64,000 nt of DNA from Xiphophorus maculatus (lineage: Eukaryota > Chordata > Actinopteri > Cyprinodontiformes > Poeciliidae). The notes under the pieces were generated by a model. The model worked only from the letters and a program-made list of their open reading frames with translations, was not told where the DNA came from and searched no databases. Made by a program: the position numbers and the translations under genes. Below, piece by piece: positions 778 to 64,000 of the stretch (the first letter of the stretch is position 1; each line of letters starts with the position of its first letter). Location of the stretch: the NCBI RefSeq assembly GCF_002775205.1, contig NC_036443.1, forward strand, positions 10,593,698-10,657,697, read 5' to 3'.

Positions 778-3719
778 TTAACTAGCAAAAGTTTTCCCTG
801 TGTCTTCCTTGCCTTTATATGTCCTCTTCCCGTGTGTGAAGGGTAGGTATCTGTACTTGATCATATGCTACAGAGAAAAGAGCAAAGAGAGAGAATTAGA
901 GACAGGCAGGTTCTGATTAAATGTTTTCATGGCACAAAGAATGGAGATGCACACTTTTTGTCAAACAAATAAAGCAATCATTAATCCAAACATAATAAAC
1001 ACCAATATTTTAAAAGGTCATGTGCAGAAGAAGAGCTGTAAAATAATATTGCCTGTAATGTTAAAGAATTAATACTGTGGCTTTTCCAAAACAATTAACT
1101 TCACTGAGTTTAAACAGGTATATGTTTTGCTTGTTTAAACATTTATGACTATATTTTTATGTTCAACATAAGTCTGCATTGTTCAGCTAAGTTGTCCTTC
1201 TCAGCCATACAAAATATTTTCTGCCCAGCCCACAAAACCCTTACAATTGACTAAGGTTATCTTCGTTGCTGTTATTTCAAATGTTAATTTTATCCATTAT
1301 CCCAAACATGCAACCACTTCATACACTCTTTGTCTTTCCAGTTGTGGTTTACCTTAATCTGCCTCTTCATGGTGATGCAAAACAGCATGATGAAGTACAT
1401 TACGAGTATTGGCCAGAACACTGGAACATTGAAGGCATCGAAAAACGTGCAAATCATGGCGATGACGATGCCTTTTGTTGCAGAGTGCCTGTTGCCAAAA
1501 TCAGAGGAAGAGAAGACTTCTGTAAGTTTTTAAATGTTAAATTTTCAAATTTCTAACATTAAGACAGTGTTGCGGAAAATTTTATTCAAGGTAATATCTT
1601 ATGTTTTCATTAATCTGACAATCATGTCATGATATGTTATTAGTTTTATGCTTATGAACTTGTACCAAACTAATCTTTCTGAGCTTCACACTAAAGGTTA
1701 GCTGTTACAGAGTTGATGTTCTCTGCCACTGTAAGAGAACCAGACTGTCTCTCATATGTTTATGATTCTCTGACCAGGACATATGGTGGTGAAGAGCACG
1801 GCGGGTGTATAGATACAGGTGGAGCAGAGACTCGTGCAGATAGATGGAACACAGCGGGCTGCTGTTGCTGAAGCTTAGCACAAGTGTCACTTTACAACAA
1901 ATCTAATCTGGATATGAACAAAATGCTTTTAAAACTGACATTCAAAGCACGTCACGTGGTGGCTAAAGGATAACTCAAATCATTAATAAAGTACAGTATG
2001 TTACCAATCTAATCTTAATGAGCAAAAATGTATAAGCTTCAATCATGATTTTTTTCCACCAAAGCAGTTCCAGTGTTTAACCAGGGGTGTCGCTATAGAC
2101 AGTTTTTCACTGATTCTATAAGAAAACCAGACTAATTTTCCAAAACCTGAGTAACAATGGAGGGATATCATTGCATCACTACGCAATGATAGTGCATAGT
2201 GATAGTGCATAGTGACTTACTGATATCAATCAGTGTGTCATACAGTTTAATCACACAAATCTAATTATTTATCTCTGTATCTATGCCATGTTGCCAGCCC
2301 AGTTAACATGCAGAGTGTCAAAGTTTAGCACTTTCTTCTTAGTTGACACTGTTGATCAGTACCAGCAGTGTTGAGAGTTAAACAGGTTAATTGGAAGCTT
2401 TATTAACTCCCCTTGATGTTTAAAGGCTGAAGACATTTCAGAACTTAGTTAGAAATGGCTTTTATTTGCAAAAATATTGGGGAGGGAGGGGCGCCAGTAG
2501 AGTTGTTGCATCTGGTTTCAAGTCATAACATCTATTGAAATTAGTCTTGTAGTGTCTAAATTATTTATGTTCAAGTTTCACCCGTTTCTACTGAAAGTCA
2601 TCATCTTCTGGAAATGTTGTGTGTTTAAATCTGTTGCCACACAGATCATCCTAAAATAAAACGTAATTTGCCCATCCCTGTTGGGCAATCACAACACAAA
2701 GCCAGACCTAGAGCTGAACTCTTACCAGAATTTAAATTCAGGCAACCTCCTGATGAAAGGGCGAAACTCCTCGTTCTGCTTGGTCGGAAGGGATGGGCCC
2801 TCATCTACAAGAGAAATTAAATTACACGCTGCATTCCAAAGGCTTTAACAACGATCCAAAACAACAAACAGGATATAGAAAGGGACTTTGTGGCACTTAT
2901 TGATACTGAAACCAATTTTGCAATAAAATTAAATTACATTGGAATCACAAAAATCTATATTGAATAAACACAGCAGATACTTTGTTTATTACAAAAAACA
3001 CACAACACAAAAAAAACCCTGTTATGAATATAAGTGTCCACTTGCCTTCATCAAGTAAAGAAGGATCCACTTTTGGCGACAGAAATGCAATGAACAGGTT
3101 GAGGTGGTAGATTCCCAAAGCGTAAGTTACTATATACCACCCCTGAAAATCAACACAAGAACAAAACATAAAAAACTCCGGGAAAGACAGACAGTTTGCT
3201 AATCAAATGTACCCCAACCGATGATCACAGGACGCTCAGGAGAAATAGATTCTCATAGCCGTTTTCTTGCAATCAAGGTTTTCTCAAGGTGAATATGGAT
3301 TTTCAAAGTATTTTTAAAAAATATACAAGTAAAAATCCCAAAAAGGTTTTAATGGTAATACATGTGTATGGAAACAGGAGTTCCTTTTAATCAAAACAAC
3401 ATGCACATTCTGATTTTTGGAGAAAACAGGGATAATAATCACCTGTAGTATGTACACTCTGATCATGTAGATTGCAGTAAGTAGTAGAGTGAGCGCCCAT
3501 CGCACCACATAGAAGGGTGTTGACTTGTCAAGCCATGTCTGATAGACCTGTTGAAAAAATGAAGGAATTTTTGTCAGCAAATATGCACAATGCCACTAAC
3601 TTAATATCAGTGACGTGTGTGAACTAAATGATAGTCACCGTTCCAACCCCAGTGAAAAAGGCAGCAACTACAGATGGTTTCCCATGGATTGATTCTCCAA
3701 CACTGTCCCCTTCTGACAT
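778..3719 (-). CDS. rer1: RER1, Golgi-to-ER retrieval receptor
   Basis: Six coding exons on the minus strand: 3639-3719, 3443-3547, 3046-3142, 2726-2804, 1353-1488 and 778-867. They sum to 588 nt, a 195-residue protein (human RER1 is 196). The start [17 protein letters not shown] and the blocks [59 protein letters not shown] and [17 protein letters not shown] match RER1. Four hydrophobic membrane segments are visible, and the C-terminus is basic. From family knowledge, RER1 sits in cis-Golgi and ER membranes, returns escaped ER membrane proteins and helps assemble multisubunit complexes. All exon phases chain. The intron after 3046 uses a GC donor. The exon carrying the ATG begins in 5' UTR, so at least one noncoding exon lies upstream. 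Confidence 0.97.
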
Positions 3720-45000: not shown

Positions 45001-48000
45001 GTTCAAATATGACAGAATGAAAACAATAAAAAAAAAATAGTGGGCCAAAATTTCTAAAGTGGTGTTCAACGCTAATTGCTAGTTATCACACATATTTTTC
45101 AGTTGTTGCTGCTTTACTTTACATAAACAACTATTAGAATTATTGATTATTATTTCTTCACATAGGACCAACTTGGTTTGGAAAACCGGATTCCCTCAAT
45201 GAGTTAAATCACAATTTGCTAAAGCTAAAGTTTGTCCTTACGTTGATCATCTTAGTCTGGTGTTAAGACATAATTTGCTCATCTCAGACATTTGCATGAT
45301 TGTGGGTAAAAACATCTTCAAACCGCTGTTAAAACAAAACAGTCTTGAATTTGAGCAGCTTCTGTCTGTAGCTGGCTTGACACATTTTCTGAAGAGCTTT
45401 TCTCATCAAAGATCAGACTGTGAATTACATCTGTCTTTACATGTTGTAAGATAAATAAATTTGTGTTTTTTAGAGTATGTTTTTACTAAAATCAAACAAT
45501 TCTTGTGTTTTTTGTTGCTGTCGTGACAGCTGAGAATTACCGTCTGGTCCCTCTGCACGAAAGCCGTGTCTTACATCAAGTATCCCAAGGCATGTCAGAA
45601 GGGTGAGTATGGGAGTGGTATTATGAATGTTTACAGTATGTACTGCTATAGTACCTGAGGACAGGGTCAGCTGAGTGCCTTGACATACCTCATTAATCAC
45701 TTACTGCTCTTTACTTTGTGGCAAAACCCGGGATATGGCCAAAGTGTGGTCGTCACTGGTGACAGCTGTGCTCCCTCTTCAGTAAATGGTGCATGCTCTT
45801 CATAACGGCCCTGTCAGCAACTACTGGATATATGATTGTCTCGGTCTCTACTCATTTTCCACATGTAACGCTATGCCCCTCTGCAATCCGTTTATCTTCT
45901 GCACTGTCATATAAATGATTCGGCTGCGGTAGTTGCATGCCGCAGACTCCATGGTGCCAAACAATCAGATAATTACATTGCATCAAACACACAGAGTGCA
46001 TATTCAGTGGAAAACATCGGCCTCCGCTGTTATTCCAGTCGGTAGGTTGAACTGTTTATGTTAAATAGGAGAAAAATCTTTGGATAGTTTGATTGTATTT
46101 TTCATCAGTAAACTGTCAACGCCGTTATATAATTTATTACCAGTGAACACACTTGGTATTCTGCTAACTGCAGCTCTTTCAGCAAATTGTCATTGCGATG
46201 ATTATTTTTCAGTAAACAAGGGGTGTTGGGTTTTTTCGACTAAAACAGCGCTCAGGCCCACTCTCTCTCCTGACGCACTTTTGAACCAGATCAAAGTTTA
46301 AAAATAATTTTATTTCCAGGCGGGACAGTTATGCTGGTGTTGTTTTCACCTTATGACCTGTGCATTGCAGCTTGGGGAGTGTCTCTTGGTGTGGAACACT
46401 GCAGCTCGAACTGAATGTTGCCACTTAAAGGGATAGTTTAAGAGTTTAGTGGGGTTGAATCTACTTGCGAGTGGTTAGTATTGGCTATAGAAGGCAGCAG
46501 CCATTGTGATCAAAGTTAGAAGAATCATAGAAGAATACTTGAATTCATCTGTCCATTGTCCAGCTTTCACTAGCTGCTGGACAGCAATTGAGCCTGTAAA
46601 GATGAATTAAATGAAAGCAAGGATAACCTGTCTTTCTATGAGATGTTTCCTGTGTTAACCATCTTTAAAAAGATGCAGAACTTTAATTTCTGGCCAATCA
46701 ACAATCTTTAAAATGTCTGACCTGCCAATACTGCTTTTATTTTGTAATTATTTTTTTTGTATGAAAAGTTGCTAAATTTAAGTATTGCTCTACCATTTTA
46801 AGCAGACATTAAGAACCGATATGAAATCTGGTCTTGTTGCTCTCTCACCCACAGGAATAGACTTCAGCAGAGATGGATGCTATATGGCTTTAGCTGAGCG
46901 CCGTGATTGCAAAGACTATGTTAGTATATTTGTATGTGACGACTGGCATTTACTCAGGGTAAGCAGGACGCCGCTTTGCTTTATTTTTCTTTTGAAAAAA
47001 AAGAAATTGTTGATTCCATCTTTGCATAATCAACTTTGTTCATTTGTATTTTGTCAGAACGTCTTAAATTGTTGTTTTGTGTTGTACTTTGGTTTCATTG
47101 TTTCTAATTTTGTTCGTATTATATATTTAATTCATTTTTTTAACTTATTTTACAGCATTTCGAGACTGAAACTCAGGACCTTGCAGGATTGGAATGGTCT
47201 CCCAATGGATGTGTGCTAGCGGTGTGGGACAGCTGTCTAGAGGTCTGTTCCTTTAAGATTCAACAGCTGAAATAAACTAACTGTATTAATGGCAAATATA
47301 GGTATGAATCATTCTTGCTTCAAAGCATTAAAAAAGCAAAAGTTACCAAAGGCTTTTTAAAGCTGCTGATTGTGCTCATTGAAGTTAGACTGGTCTGTCT
47401 TCCACTTTTCCCAGTGAACAAAATTTAATTGAAATAAAAACCTGAACACACTGTTGATTTGATTTGATCTTCATATGTATATGTGTGTTAACTTACACAC
47501 TTTATTTAGCCTATTACACCATCTTTAATCCTGCCCATTTTGAGAACTTTTGTATAACTCAGACATGTTCAACATTGTTGAATATTTCATAAAGACCTTT
47601 TAAAATAAACAGCTGTTACTATTAGACATTGTGATGAAGAAAGCATCTTATTGAAATTTGTTAGAAGTCCAGTGAATTGTAGATTAATTTTGTAATGACT
47701 CTGGCTTTAAACATTGTTTTTATTTTAGAACGTGAGGACAATCTAAATACTCCTACTTCATTCTTTTCAAATCTTGAAGCTGCATAAAAATGCCAAACAC
47801 TTGTGGCAGTACCTTAGTTTATTAATTGTTTCTTTTCCACAGTATAAGGTTTTGCTATATTCCTTGGATGGCCGGTTGCTGTCGACCTACAGTGCCTATG
47901 AGTGGTCCCTCGGTGTGAAGTCTGTGTCCTGGAGCCCCAGCAGCCAGTTCCTGGCTATAGGCAGTTATGATGAGAAAGTACAGTTTGTTAGAAAGTGTCA

Positions 48001-57719: not shown

Positions 57720-57754
<35 letters not shown>

Positions 57755-57780
57755 AATCATTACTCACTGATAATAAATGC
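55170..57780. other. tprg1l-C1q intergenic region
   Basis: The left part is the tprg1l 5' flank. From about 56784 to 57140 it holds a decayed copy of C1q-like gene sequence (listed separately). Three related stretches resembling TTGAGGAAG...AGAAAATA...TTATCA occur near 55965, 56090 and 60785, indicating that flanking DNA was duplicated with the genes. Confidence 0.6.
56784..57140 (+). pseudogene. Relic of a third C1q-like gene copy
   Basis: This stretch aligns by eye with intron 3, exon 4 and intron 4 of the intact gene at 57843-60383 (about 58520-59110). Shared words are AATGTCTCTTTT, AACAAAAATCAGGAAGATCA, the exon end AATCTAAAACAACTCCATCA followed by AGGT, and TGAAGCAAAAAA. The exon remnant is about 56957-57015, still followed by a GT; its coding frame contains TAA and its acceptor is lost. 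No signal-peptide or gC1q exon belongs to it. Confidence 0.7.
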
Positions 57781-57842: not shown

Positions 57843-60035
57843 ATGGAGATGACAAAATTTTTTCCTGCATTGTTTCTGATCTGCTTTCTCTCCACAGCTC
57901 AGCTCCAAGCTGTGGCCGACAATGAAATTATTTCACATTTAAGACAAACTGGATCACAGGCAGCAGATGCAGGGAATCTCTCAGACAATCAACTAACTTT
58001 TGCACAGGACATCCATGCAGTGCTGAGAGAGATGAGCGCCTCACTGGCTGAACTGAAGGTGGAGATGAGGTACCTACAGAGAGATTATGAAGGTAACACA
58101 AGTACAGCATTTGGAATAATTCCTTTCAAACATTGTGCTAATATGTTATCGTTAACATAGAAATAAGATTATATTTCACTGTTTTCTTTTTATTACCACA
58201 ACAGCTAAAACGAGAGAACTGGAGCTGCAGAAAGATGAATTAGACAAGCTGAAACAACAGTACCAAGGTATTTATTGTCCAAGTAAATAAACTTAAAGAA
58301 CAAGATCAATTTTGCTAAGCTAAATAACTCTATATTAACTTCTTATTGTATTTCCAGCTCAGGCAGGAGAGCTGAGCAGTGTTAAAGCCCTGGCAAACAT
58401 CACTGAAGATCAAGTGGAGTCTCTGAGAAGAGAAGGAGAAGGTTAAAAATCCTTATTGAACACTCATATTATCATATCAACAACTGCCAAGGCTCTCATT
58501 CTTCATAATTATATTTATCTAAATGTCTCTTTTTAACATATCGGTGACTAAGAAACAAAAATCAGGAAGATCAGGATCCCTCATACAACAGCCGAAACAC
58601 TGAGTTTCTTTACATCTAGACTAAAACCCACCAGTTCAGAGTTGCTTTAGTATCATAATAAATGAAACACCAAACGATATTTTGATTTGTAATGGCGGCA
58701 CTTAGAAAAATGTTGAGTTTCAAAGGTTGATTTTTGTGTTTTTATGATATTAAAGCAGTTTAAACTGCCTTGCTGCCGAAATGTGCAATACAAATAAACT
58801 TGACAGACTGGCCAAAAATAAGATATAACGGAGAAATGTAGCAACAGAAATATTTGGATGTAAATATTTATTGCAAAGTCAATTTTTTTTAATTTTTTGT
58901 CAAATTATGTTTTTTCTTTGATCCACACACAGTTAATACGAAAGGACTGGAGGTGCAGAAGAAAGAGTTCGACAAGCTGAAAGAACAACACCAAGGTGTG
59001 CCAATAAGTAAAAAAATCAAAAAGAAACTATTATTAAATGTATCAAAACAATACTTTTCATGTCAGCTTCCGTGATTAAAAATATTAGCAAATATTAAAA
59101 TGAAGCAAAAAACAAAAAGTTTTCATTCATTGTGAATAATAATAGTCATAAGAGTTTTATATTTACATTAGACCTGCAGAGCTGACAAGAAGGAATCAAC
59201 AAAGACACCAAATGTCTTTTTTCACAAATATTAAGTGAATAAATTTTACTTTCTGTCTTGACAAACCCAGGATAGTTATTGTTAGAAAAATTATGTTCTG
59301 TTATCATTCTTACATAAGTAGTTACCAGTTTGCCCTTCATTTATATGTGTGAGACAGAGCTAACCTTTCTTTAATCCTTAAAACATGTTATTTGAAGATG
59401 GTCTTCTGAGAGTTTCCTTAGTCGTAAGCCTGTGTTTGTTTATGCTGTGTGCCCCCCTATGTAGAGATTCCTTAGTCGTAAAAAATACCTATCAATTATT
59501 CTGTCTTCTGTGCTGTTTCTGGATAAATGTAGAAGGAATCCAACAAATAATCTTTCATTCATATATTGATAGCAATTTTTTGCTTCGCATGATTCCAGCT
59601 CATGCAGAGGAACTGCTGAGAGTTCAAACCAGGGCAAACGTCACTGAAAAGCAGGTGGAGGCTCTGAGGAGAGAAGGAGAAGGTTTGTGAATTCAGAAAT
59701 AAATTCACTATGGCATCAATCACATTTGGTAGAAATGTTACATTTGTTTAAAATAAATAATGCATTGTTATTGTCAAAAATCTGACCAAATTTTTAATCC
59801 CACATTCTTCTTTTTTATCCAAATCAAATCAGCTTACAGTGGATAATTTCATGGTGGATCCTAATAATTATTTCCTGATTTACAGTGAAAAAAGTGGCTT
59901 TCTCAGCTTCCTTGTTGGCTTCAGGCAACCAAGGAGAAACTGGACCATTCAACACACGCACACCGTTGGTCTTCAGACATGTTGTTTCAAACATTGGAAA
60001 TGCCTACAACCCAAATACAGGTACCTCAGTTTACA

Positions 60036-60073
<38 letters not shown>

Positions 60074-60383
60074 GTTATTATTATTATTTTGCATTTCAGG
60101 TTTTTTCACAGCTCCAGTCAAAGGAGCCTACCACTTTGAGTTCTATATCTTTGGACATGGACATGCTTCATATCCTGCAGCTGCTGGGTTGACCAGGAAC
60201 GGAGAGCATATTTTTATTGCATATGAACATCAGCCTTCTCATGGTGCTAATTCCGCTAATGGTGTCACATTGCTGTTAGAGGTTGGAGATGTTATATTTT
60301 TGCGCCAGTGGCAAAACTCAAGGATTTATGATAACATATATTGTCACACAACCTTCAGTGGTCATCTGCTTTTCACCATGTGA
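57843..60383 (+). CDS. Secreted coiled-coil C1q-domain protein, copy A
   Basis: Seven exons: 57843-58092, 58205-58267, 58358-58441, 58933-58995, 59599-59682, 59886-60020 and 60100-60383. They total 963 nt, 320 residues, every junction in phase 1. A signal peptide ([20 protein letters not shown]) is followed by a heptad coiled coil made of two duplicated exon pairs ([13 protein letters not shown] with [20 protein letters not shown], and [12 protein letters not shown] with [20 protein letters not shown]). A C-terminal gC1q domain ([64 protein letters not shown]) ends the protein. There is no collagen region, so it is a cerebellin-like or 'complement C1q-like' fish protein, expected to trimerise outside the cell. 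Three N-glycosylation sequons are seen (NLS, NIT, NVT). The start was chosen because it begins the signal peptide; an in-frame ATG lies 66 nt upstream. Confidence 0.9.
60041..60088. repeat. ATT microsatellite in C1q copy A intron 6
   Basis: About 15 ATT units, one interrupted, between the two gC1q exons. Copy B has an AAT/ATT repeat at the same place (63516-63563). Confidence 0.95.
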
Positions 60384-61792
60384 GAATCAAGCAGTGCTGA
60401 TCTTCATCATCATCTCTACAACATGTCAGAACTGACACGGAGCTACAGTGGTGTGAAAAAGAGTTTGCTCTTTTCCTGAGTTTCTATTTTTGGAATGAGG
60501 ATGGATACTTTTTATCTTTGAAAAAATATATCTTTTTTTTTTTCCATCAACAAAACACAAACTTAAGAAAATTCTTCACTGCTTTTTACTGTTTCAGCAA
60601 CAACGAGGACGTGGTTTGGGACTTAATTACCGAGAAAATTGCAGATTACACATCTTTATATCTATTTACTTAATAAAGTCTCTACAAAGACCAAAACAAT
60701 ATATATTAAACCAGACCAAATGTTGCCAAACCAGCTTTTTTCTAAGATGATACATGAGTGTGATTAATGATGATGATGCTTTTATTGAGGAGGCGATAAG
60801 AGAAAATCCTCTTTATCATTTGGTTTATAGGATAAAGAAAAGGTAACTCTGGCTTTGCCTTTTGTTGTTTGTCTTTTTTTGTGCAAAAAATTAAGTCATT
60901 ACAAATCTTAGAAATATTCATAAATTCAGGAATTTCTTTGCAATAAGAGCTGTATTGTGGACTTCCTGAAATGACCCACCGATTGTAGTAGGATAACTTC
61001 ATAATAGATATTGTGTTACTTATAAAATGCAGGTCTGACTGTGTGACTGAATCTAGGTTTCTAGTGTACTCTGGTTTGTGGCCTCATTGATTTAAGTGCT
61101 GATTTCTAATAAAAAACAATAACAATTTTGTTTCCTGCCTTTTGCTGGAAAAGACTGTGGTGAGTGTAACCATTAAACTTAGACATTATTTCTCAGTGAC
61201 TGCAAAGCATTGTGGTCATGTGGTGACACAGGAACATCAACATGTATCACATCAGCATACATGAGTGGGAAGAGATGTTCTTAAAATGCTTTATCTGAGC
61301 TAGGAAGAGTACATAGATATTGTAATGTGGTGTGACACCAGAGCTTGAGAAACTCCACATGTGGTTTTTGTTTCCTCAGAATTATAGTTGCCAAGTAAAT
61401 GAAGAGAGTCCAGGACTGCCAAATACAATTTAATCCAGTTGTTTAGTACAGTACCAGAGTTTGCTATGTAAGAAGGACTATTTTGTGTCAAGAGCACAAT
61501 TGTTTTTAACAGAGAGGTGCTCAAGTTACTGTCAGAAATCTATTTAAAATATGTTTGTCCTTGGTTCTTATCATGGAGAGAATTCTGTCCTTGAAATGTA
61601 AGAATTTATCTTCATTTTTTGTAAAGAGAAACATTTTATAGTTTTAAGAATGAAAATAACACCAACCAACAACACTAACAACAAAAACAGACTAATTACA
61701 GAAAAAATATTCTAAATTCAAAACTATGGTTTGTCATTTGTTTCAAAATATTGTGCTTTTTGATTTTACACGACAAGTCCAACGTATCAAGC
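60384..61792. other. Spacer between the two C1q-like genes
   Basis: It contains the 3' UTR of copy A and upstream DNA of copy B. The stretch TTATTGAGGAGG...AGAGAAAATCC near 60782 resembles sequence near 56090, upstream of copy A, and CATGTGGTGACAC near 61219 resembles CATGTGGTAAAAC near 57374. The duplication unit therefore includes more than 1 kb of upstream DNA. No further coding sequence is seen. Confidence 0.6.
60672..60677 (+). terminator. Poly(A) signal of C1q-like gene A
   Basis: AATAAA 289 nt after the stop codon. The first 50 nt after the stop are almost identical to those after the second gene. Confidence 0.6.
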
Positions 61793-61871
61793 CTTATCAC
61801 CTGCAAGTGTCTGTAAAAAGAAAAAAAAAAAAGGTAATAATTAATCAGCTATAGTAAATGCAGTATTTAAG
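61793..61871 (+). promoter_or_regulatory. Promoter of the second C1q-like gene
   Basis: CTTATCACCTG (61793-61803), an A tract, the HNF1-like GGTAATAATTAAT (61833-61845) and TATTTAAG (61864-61871). HNF1-like site to TATA spacing is the same as in copy A within one base. TATA to ATG is 65 nt, against 60 in copy A. Confidence 0.55.
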
Positions 61872-61928: not shown

Positions 61929-62968
61929 ATGTTTTTCCGAGCATTGCTGCTAATCTGCTCTCTTTCCAGCGCTCAGCTGCATGCTGCCGCTGAAAATGAA
62001 ATCAGACAAACTGGATCACAGGAAGGAGACGCAGAAAATCTTTCAAATAATCAACAAACCTTTACGCAGGACATCAACGCTGTGCTGAGAGAGATGAGCG
62101 CCTCACTGGCTGGACTGAAGGTGGAGCTCAGGTGCTTACAGAAAGATCATGATGGTATGTTTTGAAACAGAAGAATATCACAGGGAATTCCTACTTTATA
62201 TAACTAAAATGTTTGCATAGAAATAATGATATTGTTCACAATTTTGTCATGTTGTCCTAATAGCGAAGGTGAGCGAACTGGAGTTGCAAAAGACTGAGGT
62301 GGAAAAGTTGAAACAACAGCACCAAGGTATTTATTACAAAAGCCTTCATGAGTAAAAGTTAGACATCAGAGGTAAAATCCATTTTGTTTAACATAAGCAT
62401 GACTCCTGTCTAGGTTTTTTAATTGATAATTATTCATTTTATTCTAAATTTATCGGAGATACAATTGCAAGTACAAAAGTACAAGTGTATCTATGGAACA
62501 TGTGTAATAACAACAGCTTCAAATAGTAATAGACTAAAGGCAGATTTTAACTTCTATCTGTTAAAATCTTCACTGACAGGGAGAATAGATTAAAACTATT
62601 ATTCAACCGTGCTGGCATGAAAATTCAATTATGCATTAAATTACAGAGAAACCTAAAGAAAATATGTTTAAAATGAGAAGTGTGGCATCGGTAAATAAAC
62701 ACGCTGTCTTATTTTTTCAGAAAAAAATAAAGAGTTGGACAATCTGAAACAACACTACTAAGGTATTTAAATACTGATTATATGTTATCTATGACATCAT
62801 CTTGTTTGCCTGCATTTTGCTAAATCTAGCAAATATAACAGAACTGAGGCAAATCAAAGTGTCTCTTGTGTGTCATGTACTTATAACCACTTAAATCTTA
62901 AGGAAAACAAGACAACTAAAGTGAAACGAATATCTGTTTTTTTCCCCTAGGTAACAGGAAGGGGTAAC

Positions 62969-63060
<92 letters not shown>

Positions 63061-63534
63061 TACTGTGGTTTATTTGATTTCAGGTCAGGCTGAAGAACTG
63101 CTCAGAGTTCAAACCAGGGCAAACAGAACTGAAAACCAGGTGGAGGCTTTAAGAAGAGAAGGAGAAGGTTTGTGAATTTAGAAATAAACACCCCAAGTTA
63201 ACAGTCATATCTGTTAAAAATTTTACATTTATCTAAAAAAAATAATACATTTCTATTGTTAAAAAGATAGACAATTTTTTAATTCTTGTTTTTTATCCAA
63301 ATCAAATCAGCTTGCAGAGAATAAATTCATGCTGGATCCTAATATTTACTTTCTGTCTCACAGTGAAACGAGTGGCTTTCTCAGCTTCCTTGTTGACCTC
63401 TGGTTCAGAAACCTTTGGACCATTTAACACACACACACCGTTGGTCTTCAGACATGTTGTTTCAAACATCGGAAATGCCTACAACCCAAACACAGGTACT
63501 CCAGTTTACATTATTATTAATAATAATAATAAGA

Positions 63535-63567
<33 letters not shown>

Positions 63568-63856
63568 TTCAGGTTTTTTCACAGCTCCAGTCAAAGGAGC
63601 CTACCACTTTGAGTTCCATATCTATGGACCTGGACATGCTTCACATTCTGCAGGTGCTGTGTTGACCAAGAATGGAGAGCATATTTTTATGGCATATGAA
63701 CATCAGCCTACTCTTTATGTTAAATCTGCTAATGGTGTCACATTGCTGTTAGAGGTTGGAGATGTTATATTTTTGCGTCAGTGGCAAAACTCAATAATTT
63801 ATGATAACCAAAATCGTCACAATACCTTCAGTGGTCATCTGCTTTTCACCATGTGA
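61929..63856 (+). CDS. Secreted coiled-coil C1q-domain protein, copy B
   Basis: Exons 61929-62154, 62264-62326, 63084-63167, 63364-63495 and 63573-63856, all in phase 1, total 789 nt and 262 residues when the exon-like unit at 62721-62762 is left out. The signal peptide [19 protein letters not shown] and the N-terminal, coiled-coil ([37 protein letters not shown]) and gC1q regions parallel copy A. The gC1q exons are nearly identical to those of A, with one codon less in 63364-63495. If the unit at 62721-62762 is always included, the protein stops in the coiled coil and the gene is dead. Skipping restores an open frame because the unit is phase-symmetric. One coiled-coil exon of copy A (58358-58441 type) has no counterpart here. 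Confidence 0.75.
62721..62762 (+). pseudogene. Decayed coiled-coil exon with in-frame stop
   Basis: The unit has an intact acceptor (TTTTTTCAG) and donor (AAG|GTATTT) and resembles exon 58933-58995 of copy A, but it is 42 nt instead of 63, and its penultimate codon is TAA (62759-62761) in the reading frame. Phases 1 and 1 mean it can be skipped without a frameshift. Confidence 0.8.
62970..63060. repeat. AAT microsatellite
   Basis: About 30 uninterrupted AAT units (90 nt) in copy B, ending about 24 nt before the acceptor of exon 63084-63167. Likely to be length-variable. Confidence 0.98.
63516..63563. repeat. AAT/ATT compound repeat in C1q copy B last intron
   Basis: AAT units followed by ATT units, at the site of the ATT repeat in copy A. 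The two halves are complementary and can fold back. Confidence 0.9.
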
Positions 63857-64000
63857 GCAGCAAGCAGTGCTGATCTTCATCATCATCTCTACAACATATA
63901 GGAACTAATGTGTACACTTAGCTATATATACATTTCTTACTTGTTTTTAGAACTTCAGTTTTTAGTCACATCAGTAAATGCAATGATTGCGACTTTTAGT

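Follow-up and report, generated by a model that had tools for sequence, protein, structure and literature searches.

A coiled-coil exon with an in-frame stop in one of two tandem C1q-domain genes

Two neighbouring C1q-domain genes and their coil exons

The window, a stretch of 64,000 nucleotides from Xiphophorus maculatus, carries in its last 6.5 kb two C1q-domain genes on the same strand, referred to here as copy A and copy B, whose exons were assigned from homology between the copies, reading frame, and splice sites. Copy A (57843-60383, plus strand) is predicted to consist of seven exons, at 57843-58092, 58205-58267, 58358-58441, 58933-58995, 59599-59682, 59886-60020, and 60100-60383, encoding 320 amino acids with no internal stops. 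Copy B has five ordinary exons on the plus strand between 61929 and 63856, which together give a 262-residue product. Exon 1 (61929-62154) contains the start codon, a hydrophobic leader, and the first coil heptads, with a dN/dS of 0.25 between the copies. It is followed by exon 2 (62264-62326; three heptads in 63 nt, phase 1-1), an 84-nt exon of four heptads (63084-63167), and two exons for the C1q head (63364-63495 and 63573-63856), the second with the normal stop inside. Between the 63-nt and 84-nt coil exons sits a further unit of 42 nt, here called U (62721-62762, plus strand), which resembles a two-heptad coiled-coil exon in phase 1-1 and has an in-frame TAA at 62759-62761.

The promoter side is partly kept between the copies, which agree at 89 of 118 aligned bases. 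An HNF1-like site 5' of copy B (61833-61845, plus strand), with two mismatches to the consensus, aligns with 57752-57764 5' of copy A; with 12 such matches in the window against 6.7 expected, and as many in 7 of 100 shuffles, the site is weak evidence alone. A long TAA trinucleotide repeat (about 62970-63060) occupies the copy B intron just 5' of the 84-nt exon, and TTA-type repeats occur in both copies in the intron preceding the last exon. Elsewhere in the window, 20 of the 135 listed open reading frames (ORFs) were scanned with Pfam, of which 19 had no match and one, an exon-like ORF at 3317-3595 (minus strand), matched Rer1 with 33.2 bits (cut-off, 23.9). The ORF at 46782-47216 (plus strand), which we take to resemble WRAP73 (WDR8), gave no match in its Pfam scan.

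The coil exons measure 63, 84, 63, and 84 nt in copy A and 63, 42 (U), and 84 nt in copy B. All are in phase 1-1 and hold whole heptads, and dropping any one of them leaves both the frame and the heptad register unchanged. Beyond exon 1, the stalk counts 14 heptads in copy A and 7 in copy B with U skipped. From the later part of exon 1 to the end of the coil exons, a single register prevails, scoring 19.4 in copy A (next best, 9.1) and 12.0 in copy B (next best, 4.9) by an ad hoc score used in place of a coiled-coil predictor. By this score, the register is continuous from leader to head in both copies, as in a coiled-coil stalk. In translation, all three 84-nt coil exons (58358-58441, 59599-59682, and 63084-63167) also share an N-x-T sequon for glycosylation at one and the same position of the heptad pattern (NIT, NVT, and NRT).

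Exon 5 of copy A matches the 84-nt exon of copy B at 72 of 84 positions and exon 3 of its own gene at 66 of 84. Because the former is the closer match, the exon-pair duplication of copy A may be older than both genes, copy B having lost one 84-nt exon, although this is only a guess. When the lost exon 3 was sought in the two introns of copy B with A exons 3 and 5, 287, 26, 211, and 468 of 500 shuffles scored as well. The A exon 3 match in 62763-63083 (26 of 500 plain shuffles) is weak and was not accepted as a remnant.

Unit U, its splice sites, and its sister exons

U is flanked by AG (62719-62720) and GT (62763-62764) and translates in phase 1 to 13 residues followed by the stop. Joining the copy B exons without U gives 262 codons and a stop, and with U, translation ends after 109 residues. 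The earlier note had described an in-frame stop in a phase 1-1 exon whose skipping leaves the protein intact and whose inclusion truncates it; the phase 1 reading and the exon joining bear out both statements. In the inclusion form, the stop lies 217 nt 5' of the last junction and is followed by three junctions. PMC7764535 gives the rule for nonsense-mediated decay as a stop more than 50 to 55 nt 5' of a junction. U has two of the features of a poison exon: skipping restores the full frame, and the stop lies more than 50 to 55 nt 5' of a later junction. The corresponding codon is CAA in each of the three sister exons of the window, namely exons 2 and 4 of copy A and exon 2 of copy B, so one C-to-T change accounts for the TAA of U.

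The finding hangs on one base in one assembly, and the same picture would arise from a mistake in sequencing or assembly, or from a null allele present in part of the population. We consider this very improbable: against an error, the base lies outside a homopolymer (ACTACTAAGG), and the 21-nt difference between U and the 63-nt coil exons is independent of that base.

Splice sites were scored with approximate vertebrate frequency tables. The acceptor of U scores 11.9, the highest of the 11 acceptors in both genes (the other 10 range from 2.7 to 9.8). Its donor, AAG/gtattt, is identical to the exon 2 donor of both copies and scores 5.4 in a range of 3.0 to 8.1. On these approximate tables, both splice sites of U look usable. 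With the scores of U as thresholds, the window contains, on both strands, eight acceptor-donor pairs 20 to 150 nt apart, among which U alone has a length divisible by three. These scores bear on the idea that U is dead and always overlooked by the splicing machinery, in which case its stop would be without consequence and copy B would just make the short protein. An exon of 42 nt is short, and splicing enhancers may have gone with the missing 21 nt. An old dead exon should nevertheless show decayed sites, not an acceptor of 11.9 and a donor of 5.4, and we give this idea little chance.

The intron 3' of U contains, at 62937-62954, a strong pyrimidine tract ending in AG/GTAA (acceptor, 12.9; donor, 5.3). 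Its acceptor score exceeds those of U and of the following exon (9.1). This element resembles a zero-length (recursive) splice site. Were it to act as a conventional acceptor, a stop would again result, after 101 residues.

Local alignment of U with the three sisters and their flanking sequence gives scores of 57 (A exon 2), 52 (A exon 4), and 55 (B exon 2), against maxima of 36, 35, and 29 over 200 shuffles each; U is more like the 63-nt coil exons than chance would produce. Over its last 36 nt, U is identical to A exon 4 at 29 positions, to A exon 2 at 28, and to B exon 2 at 26. These data do not single out one counterpart in copy A. Order favours exon 4 (58933-58995, plus strand), which precedes exon 5, and donor sequence favours exon 2 (58205-58267, plus strand), an equally good candidate with the donor in common. 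The counterpart in copy A named in the earlier note thus holds as a resemblance to the A coil exons and not as a match to one of them, exons 2 and 4 fitting about equally (28 and 29 of 36).

The shorter length of U had been read as the loss of 21 nt, exactly one heptad, with the splice sites retained. The difference in length and the flanking AG and GT are there, but a second history fits as well. In the best alignment, the acceptor CAG of U (62718-62720) falls on a CAG codon inside A exon 2 (58228-58230), and the 5' part of U may have been lost, an old exon-internal CAG becoming the new acceptor. Alternatively, U may derive from a clean heptad deletion with an inherited acceptor. The pyrimidine tract of U has a weak match in the 30 nt 5' of A exon 2 (29 of 1,000 shuffles as good), which would favour the inherited acceptor. 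A longer comparison, over 57 nt of upstream intron, found nothing for A exon 2 (646 of 2,000 shuffles as good) or for the other two sisters (1,240 and 1,200 of 2,000). Nor did 60 nt of the downstream intron of U resemble those of the sisters (161, 1,081, and 163 of 2,000). Residual 5' exon sequence sought before U was weak at best against the three sisters (45, 552, and 859 of 1,000 shuffles as good). The similarity between U and its sisters extends no further than the exon and the adjoining donor.

The condition of copy B outside U

The C1q heads of both copies score well above the curated Pfam cut-off for the domain (72.6 bits for copy A and 77.4 for copy B; cut-off, 23.7), and matches to solved chains relate them to cerebellin-1, C1q chains, and adiponectin. 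With both heads used as query and bit scores compared by eye, 34 chains, many of them near-duplicates, were matched by both; copy B scores higher on 29 and copy A on 5 (three caprin-2 chains, EMILIN-1, and CTRP5). Four further solved chains were matched by the copy B head alone. Differences between the heads are rarer at positions on which solved C1q proteins are agreed (6 of 67 versus 20 of 71 positions; Fisher P = 0.0045). Where the heads differ, cerebellin-1, C1QL2, and collagen VIII side with copy B 3, 5, and 3 times and copy A 1, 0, and 1 times, in a small, overlapping comparison that used these three proteins, leaving out adiponectin and the C1q chains, and whose alignments had copy B as query and may lean towards it. 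The head differences show no clustering, as 0.63 of random placements are as tight. A search for the C1q last exon in prokaryotic and viral contig collections gave 34 and 2 pattern matches, respectively, with none confirmed, and is uninformative on fish.

Silent divergence is 0.136 in the head (59886-60423 and 63364-63896) and at least 0.45 in the exons upstream of it; in rounded counts, 12 of 94 silent sites differ in the head versus 34 of 82 upstream (P = 2.6e-5). Shortly 3' of the stop, ungapped similarity falls from 38 of 40 to 26 of 60. Together, these values suggest that the head underwent gene conversion while amino acid differences persist, with a head dN/dS of 0.82, a ratio that is unstable because silent divergence is low. 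One possible reading of this ratio is that either copy has come under relaxed or diversifying selection. Over all shared exons, dN/dS is 0.38.

Outside U, the other 789 nt of copy B are open, with zero stops or frameshifts. The protein alignment of the copies has three gaps (4, 4, and 1 residues), all in-frame; at the DNA level, the first of these spans 6 nt, is accompanied by a different start codon, and is in-frame as well. We simulated neutral evolution of copy B in 4,000 runs, with per-branch divergences of 0.265 upstream and 0.068 in the head, each half the rounded silent distance. Neutrality since the duplication gives a mean of 4.8 stops and a stop-free probability of 0.007, rising to 0.06, 0.24, and 0.55 when half, a quarter, and a tenth of the branch are neutral.

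The marks of a pseudogene that copy B does show are one stop, confined to a skippable exon, and the dN/dS of its head. The open remainder, the in-frame gaps, and head scores at least as high as those of copy A mean that pseudogenisation of the entire copy is disfavoured by the sequence. Whole-copy pseudogenisation is still the main rival explanation, in the form of a very young pseudogene in which U is constitutively included and all products are truncated, the remainder having not yet decayed. Constitutive inclusion is plausible given the top-scoring acceptor and ordinary donor of U, and very recent loss of copy B may leave no trace. The elevated dN/dS of the head agrees with this rival, as does the even chance of a stop-free remainder after neutrality over a tenth of the branch. 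It has to be set against a reading frame without any second lesion and against Pfam and most solved-chain matches, which do not mark copy B as the faster-decaying copy. Overall, we judge it unlikely, though worth keeping in view. The earlier note had offered pseudogenisation or a poison switch; its splice logic (symmetric phase, good sites, and a stop before three junctions) stands, and pseudogenisation of the whole copy is disfavoured by a remainder that is open and apparently constrained.

Interpretation and comparison with known systems

We give about an even chance to U being a decaying, removable coil exon in a live C1q gene, whose inclusion would waste some transcripts. In an array of phase 1-1 exons of whole heptads, the gain or drop of an exon would alter stalk length alone. 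U would have come to hold two heptads where its sisters have three, and a C-to-T change would have turned its last CAA into TAA, in either order. With splice sites that are still good, U is probably included in part of the transcripts. Such mRNAs, with a stop after 109 residues and no C1q head, should undergo nonsense-mediated decay, whereas skipping would yield the full protein with a stalk beyond exon 1 half as long as that of copy A. The stop would be tolerated because skipping is harmless, making U poison-like as a by-product of exon loss and not a tuned switch. Efficient inclusion of U, to which its acceptor score might point, would leave copy B effectively dead.

A regulated poison exon, in which tissue or inflammation sets the inclusion of U and thereby the amount of copy B protein, would share the symmetric phase, the high acceptor score, the usual donor, and the position of the stop far 5' of the last junctions. 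However, the introns flanking U are unlike those of its sisters, so that a shared control element is not visible, and the stop is one transition from CAA, as random loss would give. In addition, known poison exons lie mainly in RNA-binding protein genes; examples are given in PMC7764535. We regard such regulation as quite unlikely. Slimmer still is the chance of a broader scheme, in which heptad-quantised, frame-neutral exons form a splice-adjustable stalk and one exon of copy B has been turned into an on/off switch setting plasma C1q dose. Loss of one dispensable exon fits better than either whole-copy pseudogenisation or a poison switch.

Should RNA show mixed splicing, U would represent exon death caught in the act in a gene that survives, and a case of a single transition turning an ordinary, removable exon into a poison exon. 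Whole-heptad phase 1-1 exons would also provide a simple route to changes in stalk length between tandem C1q-type copies.

Poison exons coupled to nonsense-mediated decay by alternative splicing (AS-NMD) are usually regulated and often conserved. U is like them in being cassette-like, in having an in-frame stop before later junctions, and in that skipping gives the full protein; it differs in its host, a C1q-domain gene. Among papers judged by title and the start of the abstract, with subscription papers mostly outside the scope, none was found on a poison exon in a C1q gene.

Both copies resemble secreted C1q-domain proteins (gC1q/TNF superfamily) of the coiled-coil-stalk type in their hydrophobic leader, stalk, and C-terminal C1q domain. 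Fish precerebellin-like and C1q-like proteins are presumably examples of this type. The stalk here, perhaps in contrast to these, is built of repeated phase 1-1 exons of whole heptads, and their number differs between the copies. The arrangement also recalls the tandemly duplicated oyster C1q clusters described in PMC6835236, where neighbouring paralogues lie on the same strand with conserved splice sites and one exon carries a 3-nt in-frame deletion. Compared with that description, the fish locus has a seven-exon gene, an array of coil exons, and an unequal number of exons between its two copies.
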